Of a stretch of 33,720 nt of DNA, positions 15,382-29,331 are shown one piece after another. Numbering within the stretch: position 1 is the first letter of the stretch; the number at the start of each line of letters is the position of its first letter. Position numbers and translations under genes: made by a program. The notes beneath the pieces are model-generated. The model was not told the origin of the DNA. It did not search any database and saw only the letters and a program-made list of their open reading frames with translations. The stretch comes from Candidatus Desulfatibia profunda (GTDB lineage: Bacteria > Desulfobacterota > Desulfobacteria > Desulfobacterales > UBA11574), in contig JACNJH010000104.1 in assembly GCA_014382665.1 (NCBI GenBank), positions 1 to 33,720 on the forward strand, written 5' to 3'.

Positions 15382-15593
15382 ATGATAAGAACTATGAATT
15401 CCGATTTAAAAGGTGAAGGTGCCTATAGCGGCAAGCTGAGAGATGTGATCTTTACCATTACCACGCTGACCGAACTGCCCAAGTTGAAAAACGTGATCTT
15501 TAACATCGATCCGGAAGCGTTTGTGGTGGTGAACAGCACCCTTGAGGTTTTGGGAAAGCGCCATGGAACCAGAAAGCTTTACTTGCGACCTAC
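15382..15593 (+). pseudogene. Truncated YitT-family gene: only the C-terminal DUF2179 domain remains
   Basis: The plus-strand frame from the ATG at 15382 reads GEGAYSGKLRDVIF, then TELPKLKNVIFNIDPEAF, then EVLGKRHG, which is the C-terminal DUF2179 domain of YitT-type membrane proteins. Those proteins normally have about five membrane helices and 280-300 residues; here everything before the last domain is missing. The homologous part ends about where the frame enters the convergent cdaA gene (stop at 15579); the frame itself continues antisense to 15648 with no family resemblance. A remnant left by deletion is most likely. A functional stand-alone domain is less likely, since the only ribosome-site candidates are poor and the start overlaps a probable activator site for degP. 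Confidence 0.6.
15388..15402. promoter_or_regulatory. Distal activator inverted repeat for degP
   Basis: AGAAC-TATGA-ATTCC, centre 103 bp from the proximal site. The equivalent pair upstream of the 94-residue gene is 104 bp apart. It overlaps the first codons of the YitT remnant. Confidence 0.5.
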
Positions 15594-17027
15594 CTTGATA
15601 TGCACTTGCACATCAGGCCATCTTTTGTCTGCCGGTTGTATATCATAAGATCCGATGATCTTACAAAAAAGCATGGTATCCTCCTTGATACCCTCCAAGT
15701 ATATCGGGGTCGTCATCAAGCTGATTTCGCCTTTTTTACCCATTCCGGCGGGATACAACGCCTTCACTTTCTTTGGACTGACATCTACAGATACAACTTC
15801 CAAGCCCTGAGGAAGTCTGCCGACCAGTTGAGCGTTTACAATTAATTCTTTTTGCAAAATTTCTTCCAGCAAAATCGATAAGCTGGCAGGCTCCATGTCG
15901 AGTATTCGAACCTTTTTGGGCAGTTTAATGCTCTCCTCATTAACAGCAAGGGTTTGCCGGCCTGCCATAGCGTCAGACAAATTAATCTTAACGCTTGCCT
16001 GGGAAGCTCCAAAAGCATCGAGGTCCGGCTTGGGACCGGCCACACGAAGCTTGACCTCCGTCGGCTTATTCCCGACCATGACGAGGTTTTGAGGAATAGC
16101 CGTATATTCGACCGGAACAACAACGCTTCTTTCAAATATGCGGGCATAAGATGTCGCCAGGGTCGCCCAAAACAACAAGGCCAGGACTGCACTGAGGCAA
16201 ATTTCAGGAAGTAATTTCCATTTATACCGTTTAAAGGATGTCATCGCTATAAAGGAAGACGTCTTTTGCCAATGGGACTCGATCGTTGAACAGAGCTCGT
16301 TTTTATCTCCGGCTGTTTTTAATCTACCTCGTAAAAAGGTCGTAACGCTCCCTTTTTCCTCCGAAACCGCCACAACCAGCGCATCGGTCACTTCGGAAAG
16401 ACCCATGGCGGCATGATGGCGTGTTCCGAACTCGCTCGAAAGTCTATTGGTTTTCGAAATCGGCAGCCGTACGCCAAACTGGACAAATCTCCCATTTTCA
16501 ATGATCAGGGCGCCGTCATGCCCGGGCGAGTTCGGATCAAAAATGCTCATGATAAGTGGAAGACTGGGCTCGGCATCGAGCGCAAAGCCTCCGGCCAGCC
16601 ATTGTCTGACAGGCTCCTTGCCCGGGCATACTATGATCGCTCCCCGCTTTTGTTGGGTTAGGGCAAAGACAGCATCGCTGATCAACCCGGAAAAGTCGGA
16701 TCGCCTCTCGCCGGCCTCGTTTCGTCTGAGAGATACGGCCCTTTCGAAAACCTTTCGAATTTCAGGCTGGAAAATGACAATGATGCCCAGTACGGCGACC
16801 TGGCTGAGATTGGAATAGATCCAATTAATTCCCTCAAGTTCGAGAAGATTGGCGATCAGAAAAACCGTCACGGCGGTTAAAATGCCCAACAGGACTCTCC
16901 AGGTCCCCAGCGTGCGAAAGGTACGATAGATTAAAAAAATCAAGGTCGCAATCAGAAAGATATCCAGGACCGCCTTCCAACTCAGCATTTCCTTGAGAAC
17001 TTTGGTCAACAATAGAAGCTTATCCAC
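15579..17027 (-). CDS. cdaA: Diadenylate cyclase (CdaA type) fused to YbbR/CdaR domains
   Basis: Membrane enzyme making c-di-AMP from two ATP; 482 residues. Three N-terminal helices (about 17-35, 44-62, 72-88) lead into the DAC domain (about 95-235) with DGA at 171-173 and GTRHHA at 201-206. The usual second motif is RHR, here RHH. After a further membrane helix (about 275-297) come two YbbR-like repeats (about 300-390 and 395-480), which would lie outside the cytoplasm. In Firmicutes cdaA and the YbbR regulator cdaR are separate neighbouring genes; here one polypeptide carries both. Translation starts at GTG 17027, with AGAGG six bases upstream. The 5' region has two hairpins (17050-17124). 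The 3' end overlaps the YitT remnant. Confidence 0.9.
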   Translation of the reverse strand: MDKLLLLTKVLKEMLSWKAVLDIFLIATLIFLIYRTFRTLGTWRVLLGILTAVTVFLIANLLELEGINWIYSNLSQVAVLGIIVIFQPEIRKVFERAVSLRRNEAGERRSDFSGLISDAVFALTQQKRGAIIVCPGKEPVRQWLAGGFALDAEPSLPLIMSIFDPNSPGHDGALIIENGRFVQFGVRLPISKTNRLSSEFGTRHHAAMGLSEVTDALVVAVSEEKGSVTTFLRGRLKTAGDKNELCSTIESHWQKTSSFIAMTSFKRYKWKLLPEICLSAVLALLFWATLATSYARIFERSVVVPVEYTAIPQNLVMVGNKPTEVKLRVAGPKPDLDAFGASQASVKINLSDAMAGRQTLAVNEESIKLPKKVRILDMEPASLSILLEEILQKELIVNAQLVGRLPQGLEVVSVDVSPKKVKALYPAGMGKKGEISLMTTPIYLEGIKEDTMLFCKIIGSYDIQPADKRWPDVQVHIKVGRK

Positions 17028-17124: not shown

Positions 17125-17280
17125 CGTCCGCTCAAAATCCGATGATTCGTTGTTTGTTTTCGATTATATCAAATCAAATAACGAATCACAAATAACAAAT
17201 GACTCCCGCTTGAGCCTCAGCGTCCAGCCGAGGTTCACTGTGTTTGACATGCAGGCCGCATTTGACTATAATCTCAAGGT

Positions 17281-17329
17281 CGTATAATAAAAAACTATGA
17301 ATATCCGTATAATAAAAAGCTATAAATAT
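17281..17329 (+). repeat. Two 24-bp AT-rich direct repeats, each with TATAAT
   Basis: Copies at 17281-17304 and 17306-17329 share 22 of 24 bases and each contains GTATAATAAAAA. The period is 25 bp. They lie 73 bp before the MFS start codon and each holds a perfect -10 hexamer, so they may supply promoters for that gene. No matching -35 box is evident. Confidence 0.45.
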
Positions 17330-25921: not shown

Positions 25922-26923
25922 ATGGACGATCATTCTGGCAGTCAACCGACTCAAATAACTTTTTCTGACATCGATCTGGTAAGGCAGCTTTTTGGCGAGT
26001 ATAACAGCAACTTGCAAAGAATTGCAGCCGCCACAGGCAGTTCCATTCACGCCAGAGGCAATACGGTGTTTATTCAGGGAGACCCTATTGCCGCAAAGCT
26101 TGCAAAAAATGTGCTCAATCAACTGTACGGGTTGTTAAAAGAAAAATTTCCGATTTATCCCAATGATGTCGATTATGCCGTCAGGATTCTCAGCGGAAAT
26201 GATTCGATTAAGCTCAAAGATATCTTTCTTGACACGATCTACGTGACTTCAAAAAAACGATCCGTCACTCCCAAAAGCCGAACGCAAAAAGAATACATTG
26301 ACGCCATCCGCAGTACTGACATGGTTTTCGGAATTGGGCCGGCAGGCACCGGCAAAACCTATCTGGCCATGGCGATGGCGGTATCAACACTTTCAAAAGG
26401 AGAGGTTGACCGTATTATTCTTACCCGACCGGCGGTTGAGGCCGGTGAGGCGCTGGGTTTTCTGCCCGGAGATCTTGCCGAAAAGGTTGATCCGTACTTA
26501 AGACCCCTTTACGACGCACTTCACGACATGATGCGCTTTGAAAAGGTATCGAATCTGATCGAAAAGGGCGTTATCGAAGTGGCGCCCCTTGCATTCATGC
26601 GGGGCAGAACCTTGAACGACTCTTTTATTATTCTTGATGAAGCCCAAAATACGACCCACGAACAGATGAAAATGTTTTTGACCCGGATCGGATTCAACTC
26701 CAAAGCCGTCATCACCGGAGATATAACCCAGATCGACCTTCCGGCCGGAAAGCCTTCGGGACTCATTGAAGCCAAAAACATCCTCCAGGGAATCGACGGC
26801 ATCAGGATTATCTTCTTTTCAAAAACAGATGTTGTCCGCCATGGATTGGTCCAAAAAATTATCAAGGCCTATGAAGATCTGGAAGCAAGCAAGCAGGAAT
26901 TATCAACCCGAAACTCGACATGA
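25922..26923 (+). CDS. phoH: PhoH-like ATPase
   Basis: 333-residue RNA-linked ATPase of the PhoH/YbeZ type. An N-terminal KH-like region (about 20-75, with IAAATGSSIHARGN) precedes the P-loop domain with Walker A GPAGTGKT (139-146) and Walker B ILDEAQN (DEAQ 239-242). The arginine-rich C-terminus with FSKTDVVRHGLV is also typical. The ATG at 25922 is taken over a TTG at 25916; both have weak ribosome sites. PhoH proteins act with YbeY in ribosome and rRNA quality control, and ybeY lies two genes downstream. The stop overlaps the next start (ATGA at 26920). In the 268-bp gap upstream I see only a TTGACA at 25743 without a good -10 partner. Confidence 0.95.
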   Translation: MDDHSGSQPTQITFSDIDLVRQLFGEYNSNLQRIAAATGSSIHARGNTVFIQGDPIAAKLAKNVLNQLYGLLKEKFPIYPNDVDYAVRILSGNDSIKLKDIFLDTIYVTSKKRSVTPKSRTQKEYIDAIRSTDMVFGIGPAGTGKTYLAMAMAVSTLSKGEVDRIILTRPAVEAGEALGFLPGDLAEKVDPYLRPLYDALHDMMRFEKVSNLIEKGVIEVAPLAFMRGRTLNDSFIILDEAQNTTHEQMKMFLTRIGFNSKAVITGDITQIDLPAGKPSGLIEAKNILQGIDGIRIIFFSKTDVVRHGLVQKIIKAYEDLEASKQELSTRNST

Positions 26924-29331
26924 ATCCGGAAAAAAATAAAACCATATTAGCTAAGTTTTTGATCTCCAACAACTATGTTCACTGGAGTCTTCTTATCGGC
27001 ATTACGATCGTTTTCACCATTTTTCTCTATCCGAACCTGGTTATCAAAACCTATCCCTATCAATTAGGAGATGTTGTTGAAAAGGATGTCAAGGCCACCA
27101 AAGATTTTCTGATTGAAGATCAGGAGGCCACAAAAACCAAACGCCGCGAAGCCATCGACAATGTATTAACGCTTTACGATTATGACGCAAGCCTTTCTAC
27201 AAAAGTCCGCCGGAAGGTCAAGACAGCTTTTGGCGCGCTCAGGGCGCTTTTCGAACCTGAAAAAAGCAGCCAGAAGCAAAATCGATCCGAACCGCCCCAG
27301 GCCGTCGCAGAGCAATCCGCCGAAAGGGAAAAATCGATCCATGATCGTATCTGGCAGATGAAAGAGTATTTCGAACAAACTATCGGCATTACCGTCAGTG
27401 ATGGGGCCTACAAAATTCTTGAAAATGAATCCTTTTCCGAAGATATCGCAGATCTTATCATCCAAATCACAACAGAAATTATAGATAACGGTGTGGTCGC
27501 CAATAAAGAACTGCTCCTCAGGGAAGCCGATAAAGGAATCATATTAAGGGATATCAGGACGAAAACCGAAACTGCCGTTTATAAGTTAAAGCAATTCTAC
27601 GGCCTGGACCAGGCCAAAACTATGGTGAGGATTATTGGCCAGCCCCTTCTCAAAAACCGCAATTATGTCCTGGTTAACATGATCGTCGATTTTGTCCAAG
27701 GGCTCATACAACCCGATATAACCTTAAACAAAAGCGAAACCGAGGAACGCAAGAAAAATGCCGTTTTAGAAATCAAACCGATTTTTTACAAAATAAAGGC
27801 GGGGGAAATGCTTTTGCGCGAAGGAGAACGGGTTACCCAAATACAGCTTTTAAAGCTGAAAGCTTCCCAGGAAAGCGCAGAAACCGGACAGATTCTGGTA
27901 ACCAGTATCGGCTCGGCCATGATTATTCTGTGCATTCTATTGACGACCTATATCCTTCATCTCAAACATCAAAGCCACATGGACCGCAGTCAAAACAAGC
28001 ATCTTTTATTCATCGCCAGCGTGCTTATCACCTTTTTTTTCATTGCCAGGATATCAGCATCCTTATCCGAATCGGTAGCCCATTATGCATCTTTCGACCT
28101 GCCTGAATCATCAATTGCCCTCGGTATACCCCTTGCTTCAGGCGCCATGACCGTTTGCCTGTTTGTGGGTCTTGACCTTGCCATTCCTTTTGCCATGCTT
28201 ATCGCCATCGGAACGGCGGTCATATTTAAAAACAGGTTTGATATTTTTATTTACTTTTTCATTAACGGCTCATTGGCGGCCTACTGGATGCAGAGTTGCC
28301 GGGAACGCAAAGTATTTATCAAGGCCGGCTTAAAACTCGGGCTGCTGAACGTGGCTCTGGCGACGGCCATCACCTTCTATATGGCTGATTTGTCGGGATT
28401 TAAAATCTTATGGGACTGGGCCTTTGCGTTCATGGGTGGTGTTGCCGCAGGGATTGTTACTGCCGGTATCGCCCCGCTGGTCGAAATCGCTTTTGACTAT
28501 ACAACCGATATCAAGCTTCTTGAACTGGCAAACCTTGATCAGCCCATTCTGCGCAGACTTATGTTAGAAGCTCCCGGAACCTATCATCATTCAGTCATGG
28601 TAGGATCGCTGGTCGAAGCGGCCGCAGCCGAAATCGGTGCCAACTCCCTGCTTGCCAAAGTGTGCGGATATTATCACGATATCGGTAAAATCAACAAACC
28701 GCTGTATTTCGTTGAAAATCAAACCGACGGCATCAATCGGCACGATAAACTGGCGCCTTCCATGTCCAGCCTAATCCTGATCTCTCACGTCAAAGACGGT
28801 GTCGAAATTGCAAAACAGAACAAGCTGGGCCAGATCATTATCGATACCATCAGGCAATCCCACGGAACCAGCCTTATCAGTTTTTTTTATGAAAAAGCCA
28901 AAAAACTAAAAGGCGAAGATGCCGTTAAAATTGAGGACTTTCGATACCCTGGTCCAAGGCCCCAAACACGGGAAGCCGGCCTTGTCATGCTAGCGGATGT
29001 GGTCGAAGCCGCCTCGAGAACCCTCGCCAATCCGACCCCGTCCAGAATCCAAAAACATGTACAAGATATGATCAACAAGATTTTTTCGGACGGTCAGCTC
29101 GATAATTGTGAACTGACCCTGAAAGATTTGCATAACATTGCAAAAAGTTTCAACAAAATATTAAACGGAATATATCACCATCGCATTGAATATCCCGAGC
29201 AAGTTCTCTTGAGCAACGGAAAAGGAAAAAATGGGAGTCCTGATCGACAACAGCCAAAACAAATACAAGATATCTCTGAAGAAAATAAAAGAAAAGGCCC
29301 AGGCCATCTTAAACGCCTTGGACTGTCCTGA
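26920..29331 (+). CDS. pgpH: 7TM-HD family c-di-AMP phosphodiesterase (PgpH/YqfF type)
   Basis: 803-residue membrane protein. Order: N-terminal helix (about 18-40), extracytoplasmic 7TMR-HDED domain (about 45-320), seven-helix membrane domain (about 325-515), and a cytosolic HD domain (about 540-720). Metal-binding residues are visible in GTYHHSVMVGSL, in YYHDIGK (H586, D587) and in LADVVEAASR. In Listeria and Bacillus such proteins hydrolyse c-di-AMP to pApA, and Myxococcus has a counterpart; the activity here is inferred from family. It is translationally coupled to phoH (ATGA) and overlaps ybeY by 101 bp in another frame. Its likely partner enzyme, the cyclase CdaA, is encoded about 10 kb away at 15579-17027. 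Confidence 0.9.
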   Translation: MNPEKNKTILAKFLISNNYVHWSLLIGITIVFTIFLYPNLVIKTYPYQLGDVVEKDVKATKDFLIEDQEATKTKRREAIDNVLTLYDYDASLSTKVRRKVKTAFGALRALFEPEKSSQKQNRSEPPQAVAEQSAEREKSIHDRIWQMKEYFEQTIGITVSDGAYKILENESFSEDIADLIIQITTEIIDNGVVANKELLLREADKGIILRDIRTKTETAVYKLKQFYGLDQAKTMVRIIGQPLLKNRNYVLVNMIVDFVQGLIQPDITLNKSETEERKKNAVLEIKPIFYKIKAGEMLLREGERVTQIQLLKLKASQESAETGQILVTSIGSAMIILCILLTTYILHLKHQSHMDRSQNKHLLFIASVLITFFFIARISASLSESVAHYASFDLPESSIALGIPLASGAMTVCLFVGLDLAIPFAMLIAIGTAVIFKNRFDIFIYFFINGSLAAYWMQSCRERKVFIKAGLKLGLLNVALATAITFYMADLSGFKILWDWAFAFMGGVAAGIVTAGIAPLVEIAFDYTTDIKLLELANLDQPILRRLMLEAPGTYHHSVMVGSLVEAAAAEIGANSLLAKVCGYYHDIGKINKPLYFVENQTDGINRHDKLAPSMSSLILISHVKDGVEIAKQNKLGQIIIDTIRQSHGTSLISFFYEKAKKLKGEDAVKIEDFRYPGPRPQTREAGLVMLADVVEAASRTLANPTPSRIQKHVQDMINKIFSDGQLDNCELTLKDLHNIAKSFNKILNGIYHHRIEYPEQVLLSNGKGKNGSPDRQQPKQIQDISEENKRKGPGHLKRLGLS

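Follow-up and report, generated by a model that had tools for sequence, protein, structure and literature searches.

The fused gene and its surroundings

The window analysed here, a stretch of 33,720 nucleotides from Candidatus Desulfatibia profunda, a bacterium of the sulfate-reducer type, carries on its minus strand (17027..15579) a gene that starts with GTG, just 5' of which lies GAGAGG, and encodes a CdaA_N-DAC-TM-YbbR-YbbR protein of 482 amino acids. An earlier sequence-only reading had picked out this open reading frame, which proves to be real, without giving its strand. All Pfam matches of the protein exceed their curated cut-offs: CdaA_N (PF19293; residues 15-90, 16758..16985, with hydrophobic segments; E 1.6e-11, 44.7 bits against a cut-off of 23.8), DAC (PF02457; residues 118-235, 16323..16676; E 4.5e-33, 113.8 bits against 27) and YbbR (PF07949), which matches in two stretches, the best at residues 304-380 (E 1.7e-9, 38.3 bits against 22.3). 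Between the DAC and YbbR parts, both the structural model and hydropathy reveal an additional helix (residues 269-294, 16146..16223), the third clear hydrophobic region of the chain. The CdaA_N family is usually assigned three helices. Since the profile of this family thus implies three helices before it, we count residues 269-294 as the fourth transmembrane helix; it is preceded by KRYKWK, which fits a crossing from inside to outside.

The nearest solved relatives of the protein are diadenylate cyclases. In an AlphaFold2 model built from 24 sequences (about 88 pLDDT in the DAC domain, poor in the transmembrane part), residues 103-254 align with residues 103-254 of Bacillus subtilis CdaA (8ogk; Z 25.5, 1.8 Å, 152 residues), so that the two proteins share one numbering; the B. 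subtilis motifs are D171GA and R203HR (PMC8573169). The YbbR fold occurs twice in the C-terminal part: repeat 1 (residues 298-390, 15858..16136) matches 3lyw (Z 11.3) and, over residues 297-394, 5hqh, Listeria lmo2119 (Z 10.4), and repeat 2 (residues 385-482, 15582..15875) matches 2kxy (Z 8.0; 8.1 when folded alone). Pfam, fold matches and hydropathy therefore bear out the proposal that a membrane part, a DAC domain, an extra helix and two YbbR-like repeats share one chain, and the layout of KRYKWK and helix fits repeats that lie outside the membrane. A fixed 1:1 ratio of sensor to cyclase would follow from this architecture.

The protein contains HDGA at residues 170-173 (DGA at 171-173, 16509..16517), GTRHHA at 201-206 (T202-R203-H204-H205, 16413..16424) and SEE at 222-224; the DGA motif and the replacement of RHR by RHH, both reported by the sequence-only reading, are present in the sequence and in column counts across relatives. 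It resembles the CdaA (DacA) of B. subtilis and L. monocytogenes in having CdaA_N before DAC, the same numbering and fold (Z ~25), DGA, SEE and the reported ATP ligands, including the contacts in 4RV7 except L131, which is Ile here. Unlike CdaA, it has RHH, Arg187, G169, D164, a fourth transmembrane helix and two in-chain YbbR repeats, and it scores 170 bits against the cut-off of 188.8 for the NCBIfam CdaA equivalog TIGR00159. Because RHR is lacking and this score is below the cut-off, we do not file it as a canonical CdaA. The NCBIfam models for DisA (33.4 bits against 201, the match being limited to the DAC part) and CdaS (102.8 against 225) also remain below their cut-offs. The YbbR part resembles CdaR, for example Listeria lmo2119, in its fold and in its extracytoplasmic position after one transmembrane helix, but belongs to the same chain as the cyclase and has two repeats only.

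On the same strand lies a putative promoter, TTGTGA-17-TATAAT (17191-17163; a consensus match only), which is overlapped by an 18-nt inverted repeat (17143-17160/17171-17188), a putative operator; the two elements span 17143..17191. Elsewhere the window encodes, by Pfam, a PgpH-type 7TMR-HDED/7TM/HD protein (26920..29331, plus strand), a candidate c-di-AMP phosphodiesterase, as well as two MscS channels, CorA and a K+ channel with TrkA domains. No Rfam family was found in the window. On the plus strand, positions 17244-17329 hold, before an MFS gene, a perfect sigma-70 promoter sequence (TTGACA-17-TATAAT) and, after this sequence, a 24-nt direct repeat in two copies.

DAC-YbbR fusions and the RHH and RHT clades

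Fusion of DAC with YbbR is not special to this protein. A family model matched in 354 of the 395 genomes sampled from Desulfobacterota; among the best-scoring matches, most are single frames of ~480-520 aa and some of ~400-420 aa, and others consist of two genes in the same frame, separated by one stop, in an open frame of ~590 aa. Since these two-gene versions exist, the fusion can be seen as the product of a stop lost between cdaA and ybbR, or of a change in the opposite direction. Uniqueness to the window protein is further rejected by a second fusion in the same genome (G000:C124:1330-2628, 479 aa), which is alike in architecture and length but shares only 30% identity and differs in its motifs (NPVHDGA, Ile187 and the canonical GTRHRA) and neighbours, a DUF2914 gene lying upstream of it. 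Small DUF2914 proteins, candidate accessory factors, adjoin canonical (RHR) DAC-YbbR genes more widely (17 of 118 neighbour proteins; for example, L033:787-1293). Genome G004 retains a stand-alone ybbR within a tilS-ftsH-folP-ybbR-coaX cluster that lacks cdaA (L198:4212-10364; genes named from sequence), the cyclase being encoded elsewhere as a fusion. Our literature search, outside which most subscription journals lie, found no paper on a DAC-YbbR fusion.

A contig scan with the window protein as single query returned no loci, and one with an alignment as query returned 29, almost all of them listed under Desulfobacterota or 'Deltaproteobacteria'. This alignment scan, together with whole-genome searches, yielded 37 usable DAC domains of the RHH clade, the most distant of them sharing 38-45% identity with the window protein; 36 carry RHH, one carries RHQ (L004) and none has RHR. 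A third type of DAC-YbbR protein, from other families of the phylum (L084, L085, L087-L089, L091-L093, L099-L102, L207-L212), reads GLRHTA (T202L, R205T) in 12 of 12 domains. In an IQ-TREE phylogeny of the DAC domain, based on few columns and with bootstraps not fully settled, RHH (98/93), RHT (100/97) and RHH plus RHT (100/92) each fall on one side of a branch, placing the window protein, on these alignments, in a monophyletic clade of RHH paralogues that is sister to the RHT clade. The grouping is not driven by the motif columns, given that a quick tree omitting the whole DAC domain keeps RHH, RHT and RHR apart (SH-aLRT 99, 100 and 98). Recurrence of the motif in many independent genomes also rejects a sequencing or annotation error, and the change is neither an error nor lone drift.

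No constant partner gene emerged from the search for a conserved neighbourhood of RHH loci; genes for ion transport and osmolytes do appear repeatedly. At L036 and L051 the RHH gene comes after glycogen or trehalose genes, and at L103 a TrkA/Kef pair adjoins it (named from sequence). Ion-transport neighbours occur at 14 of 31 RHH loci against 0 of 31, a comparison biased by queries derived from RHH loci; in an unbiased Pfam count, too small to decide, TrkA_N accounts for 4 of 133 RHH neighbours and does not figure among the 25 most frequent families of the 118 neighbours of canonical genes. These surroundings, with the channel and CorA genes of the window, suggest a link to osmotic or ion control that is not statistically secure. 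Membrane proteins of the UPF0316/YitT kind (DUF2179, DUF5698) lie beside or near several RHH genes (L048:7245-7907, L068:7405-7968, L034:13271-13846 and L046:962-1858).

Pocket residues

Column counts over the RHH (n = 37), RHT (n = 12) and canonical RHR (n = 45) domains place the motif change within a wider set of substitutions. Three fall in the segment that reads DPNSPG in the window protein (residues 164-169, 16521..16538): both clades have D164 where canonical enzymes mostly have Trp, S167 in place of mostly Asn, and G169 in place of Val, Met or Leu. They also share F184 for Val and a basic residue 187 (16467..16469) for Ile or Leu, Arg in 36 of 37 RHH and His in all 12 RHT domains. Residue 205 is Arg in 45 of 45 canonical relatives, His in RHH and Thr in RHT; T202 becomes Leu solely in RHT. 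The columns of H170, D171, G172, L188, P189, G201, R203, H204, E212, D215, S222 and E224 are unchanged, and D171, G172, T202, R203, H204, S222, E223 and E224 are invariant in 37 of 37 RHH domains.

In Listeria CdaA, ATP is contacted by the side chains of L131, D171, T202, R203, H204, S222 and E224 and by the main chain of L188, G201 and E223, residue 205 not being listed (review PMC7288161). All of these contacts are kept in the RHH clade except L131, mostly replaced conservatively (Ile in 29, Leu in 6 and other residues in 2 of 37). R187 occupies the position of Tyr187, which in Listeria stacks on adenine and is reported as crucial, the backbone of the adjacent Leu188 binding adenine (PMC10167629, PMC11066881); the canonical relatives here also lack Tyr187. 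Since L169 of B. subtilis CdaA sits in an inactive dimer interface (PMC8573169), G169 may, by analogy, bear on oligomer control. Mtb DacA, B. thuringiensis CdaS and M. bovis CdaM all lose activity when RHR is changed to AAA (PMC3328451, PMC4568413, PMC13022847), but these triple mutants do not isolate Arg205, and the literature search turned up no mutant in which the second Arg alone is altered.

With residue 205 not a reported ATP ligand and Gln205 tolerated within the clade, RHH might simply equal RHR in function, and the paralogue would then be set apart only by how it is expressed or by which signal YbbR reads. Such neutrality is very improbable, given that R205 is invariant in canonical enzymes and that both sister clades have fixed the change along with those at five further positions.

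Genome content and the probable activity of non-RHR cyclases

The RHT protein is the sole PF02457 protein in the 12 of 12 RHT genomes tested. Within one RHT family, 6 of 24 genomes contain the c-di-AMP riboswitch RF00379, in eight copies altogether (L199-L206, positions 1501-about 1640); a KUP-type K+ transporter follows seven of them and an APC-type transporter the eighth, both named from sequence. In G128 and G455 (98% complete) and G460 (80%), the riboswitch coexists with a GLRHTA protein as the only DAC, and it precedes the KUP-type transporter in G128 and the APC-type in G455; of the same set, G461 encodes a small DAC as well, and the DAC of G454 and G457 is cut or was not found. Small DAC proteins of ~206-211 aa (L214:1309-1941 and L215:1309-1926) read AQLDGAFI...GSRH.AAA, with RHV or RHM for RHR.

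Because genomes that carry c-di-AMP riboswitches can have an RHT protein as their sole DAC, we infer that a DAC lacking RHR very probably still makes c-di-AMP. The suggestion that RHH may alter activity accordingly stands as a possibility, whereas loss of activity is unlikely, Arg205 not being a reported ATP contact and the RHT protein, altered at two motif positions, being the sole DAC in all RHT genomes tested, some of them with c-di-AMP riboswitches. The RHH protein shares D164, S167, G169, F184 and a basic residue 187 with the RHT fusions but differs from them in its motif, in Arg187 and in genome content: 13 of 16 RHH genomes also carry a canonical DAC, fused in Desulfobacterales and unfused in others. 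Two RHH genomes (G444 and G095, 100% complete) have no canonical CdaA, and each also has a DACND-DACNH-DAC protein. A c-di-AMP riboswitch was sought in these two genomes and in that of the window protein (G000), and none was found. The DACND-DACNH-DAC proteins at loci L188:4289-5878 and L197:3971-5455 read ILDG...GARFNSALR, far from DGA and RHR, and another (L128:1408-2865) reads LMDG...GARYNSALR.

The frequent presence of a canonical DAC beside RHH, and descriptions of RHR as conserved and needed, speak for a pseudoenzyme: an RHH paralogue that would bind ATP or c-di-AMP without cyclising and instead act as a sensor or modulate the canonical DAC as its partner. We regard this as unlikely: none of the reported catalytic or metal ligands varies, mean pairwise identity of the DAC domain is 0.60 in both RHH and RHR, quite unlike a decaying pseudoenzyme, and RHH is the only CdaA-type protein in two complete genomes, its RHT sister being the sole DAC in its own. 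Coexistence in 13 of 16 genomes would also be expected of a non-redundant product, and the joint switch of 5-6 positions, one of them adenine-stacking, fixed across 49 RHH and RHT domains, could reflect a pocket (D164, G169, R187, H205) that prefers another nucleotide or yields a mixed or linear product, a second DAC messenger. Yet such a change of specificity is improbable. The phosphate ligands are unaltered, as is L188, which recognises adenine N1/N6 through its backbone; Tyr187 is absent from canonical relatives too; and genomes with c-di-AMP riboswitches have as their sole DAC the RHT sister, in which more has changed.

Our preferred reading, to which we assign a probability of about 70%, is that the window protein is an active membrane-bound CdaA-type c-di-AMP cyclase with its own YbbR envelope input, a diverged second paralogue. 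For this reading we also count the YbbR folds, the extra transmembrane helix, the PgpH-type protein in the window and the two genomes without a canonical CdaA; against it count the inactive RHR-to-AAA mutants, the TIGR00159 score, the lack of detected riboswitches in G000, G444 and G095, R187 at the crucial Listeria residue and the DACND-DACNH-DAC proteins of G444 and G095. The literature search found no assay of an RHH- or RHT-clade enzyme; catalysis, product, and sensing with its direction are inferred from the architecture, folds, clade, co-conserved substitutions and ligand conservation computed here. The window protein thus most likely also makes c-di-AMP under the control of its own YbbR domains. 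In the mechanism we propose, two ATP-loaded DAC domains would pair face to face to form c-di-AMP, and the periplasmic YbbR repeats, joined to DAC via the fourth transmembrane helix, would bias this pairing according to the envelope or osmotic state. RHH with D164, G169, F184 and R187 would leave most known ATP and metal ligands intact and more likely retunes the pocket edge or DAC-DAC contacts, and with them activity level and regulation, than abolishes or redirects catalysis. A bolder version, in which RHH and RHT form an undescribed Desulfobacterota class of diadenylate cyclases with a rewritten pocket, the cyclic dinucleotide of RHH differing from canonical c-di-AMP or being regulated apart from it, possibly in osmolyte or ion control, is also unlikely.

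The literature consulted treats RHR as common to, and needed by, all diadenylate cyclases, but the mutants it reports alter the whole triplet. The two natural clades described here, which lack the second Arg and in one case also the preceding Thr, make the part of the motif needed for catalysis directly testable, since the RHT protein is the sole DAC of its genomes, some of them with the riboswitch. The fusion, carried by the cultured Desulfosarcina widdelii, Desulfobulbus elongatus and Desulfosediminicola flagellatus, also offers a single-chain setting in which to study how CdaA is controlled by YbbR domains.
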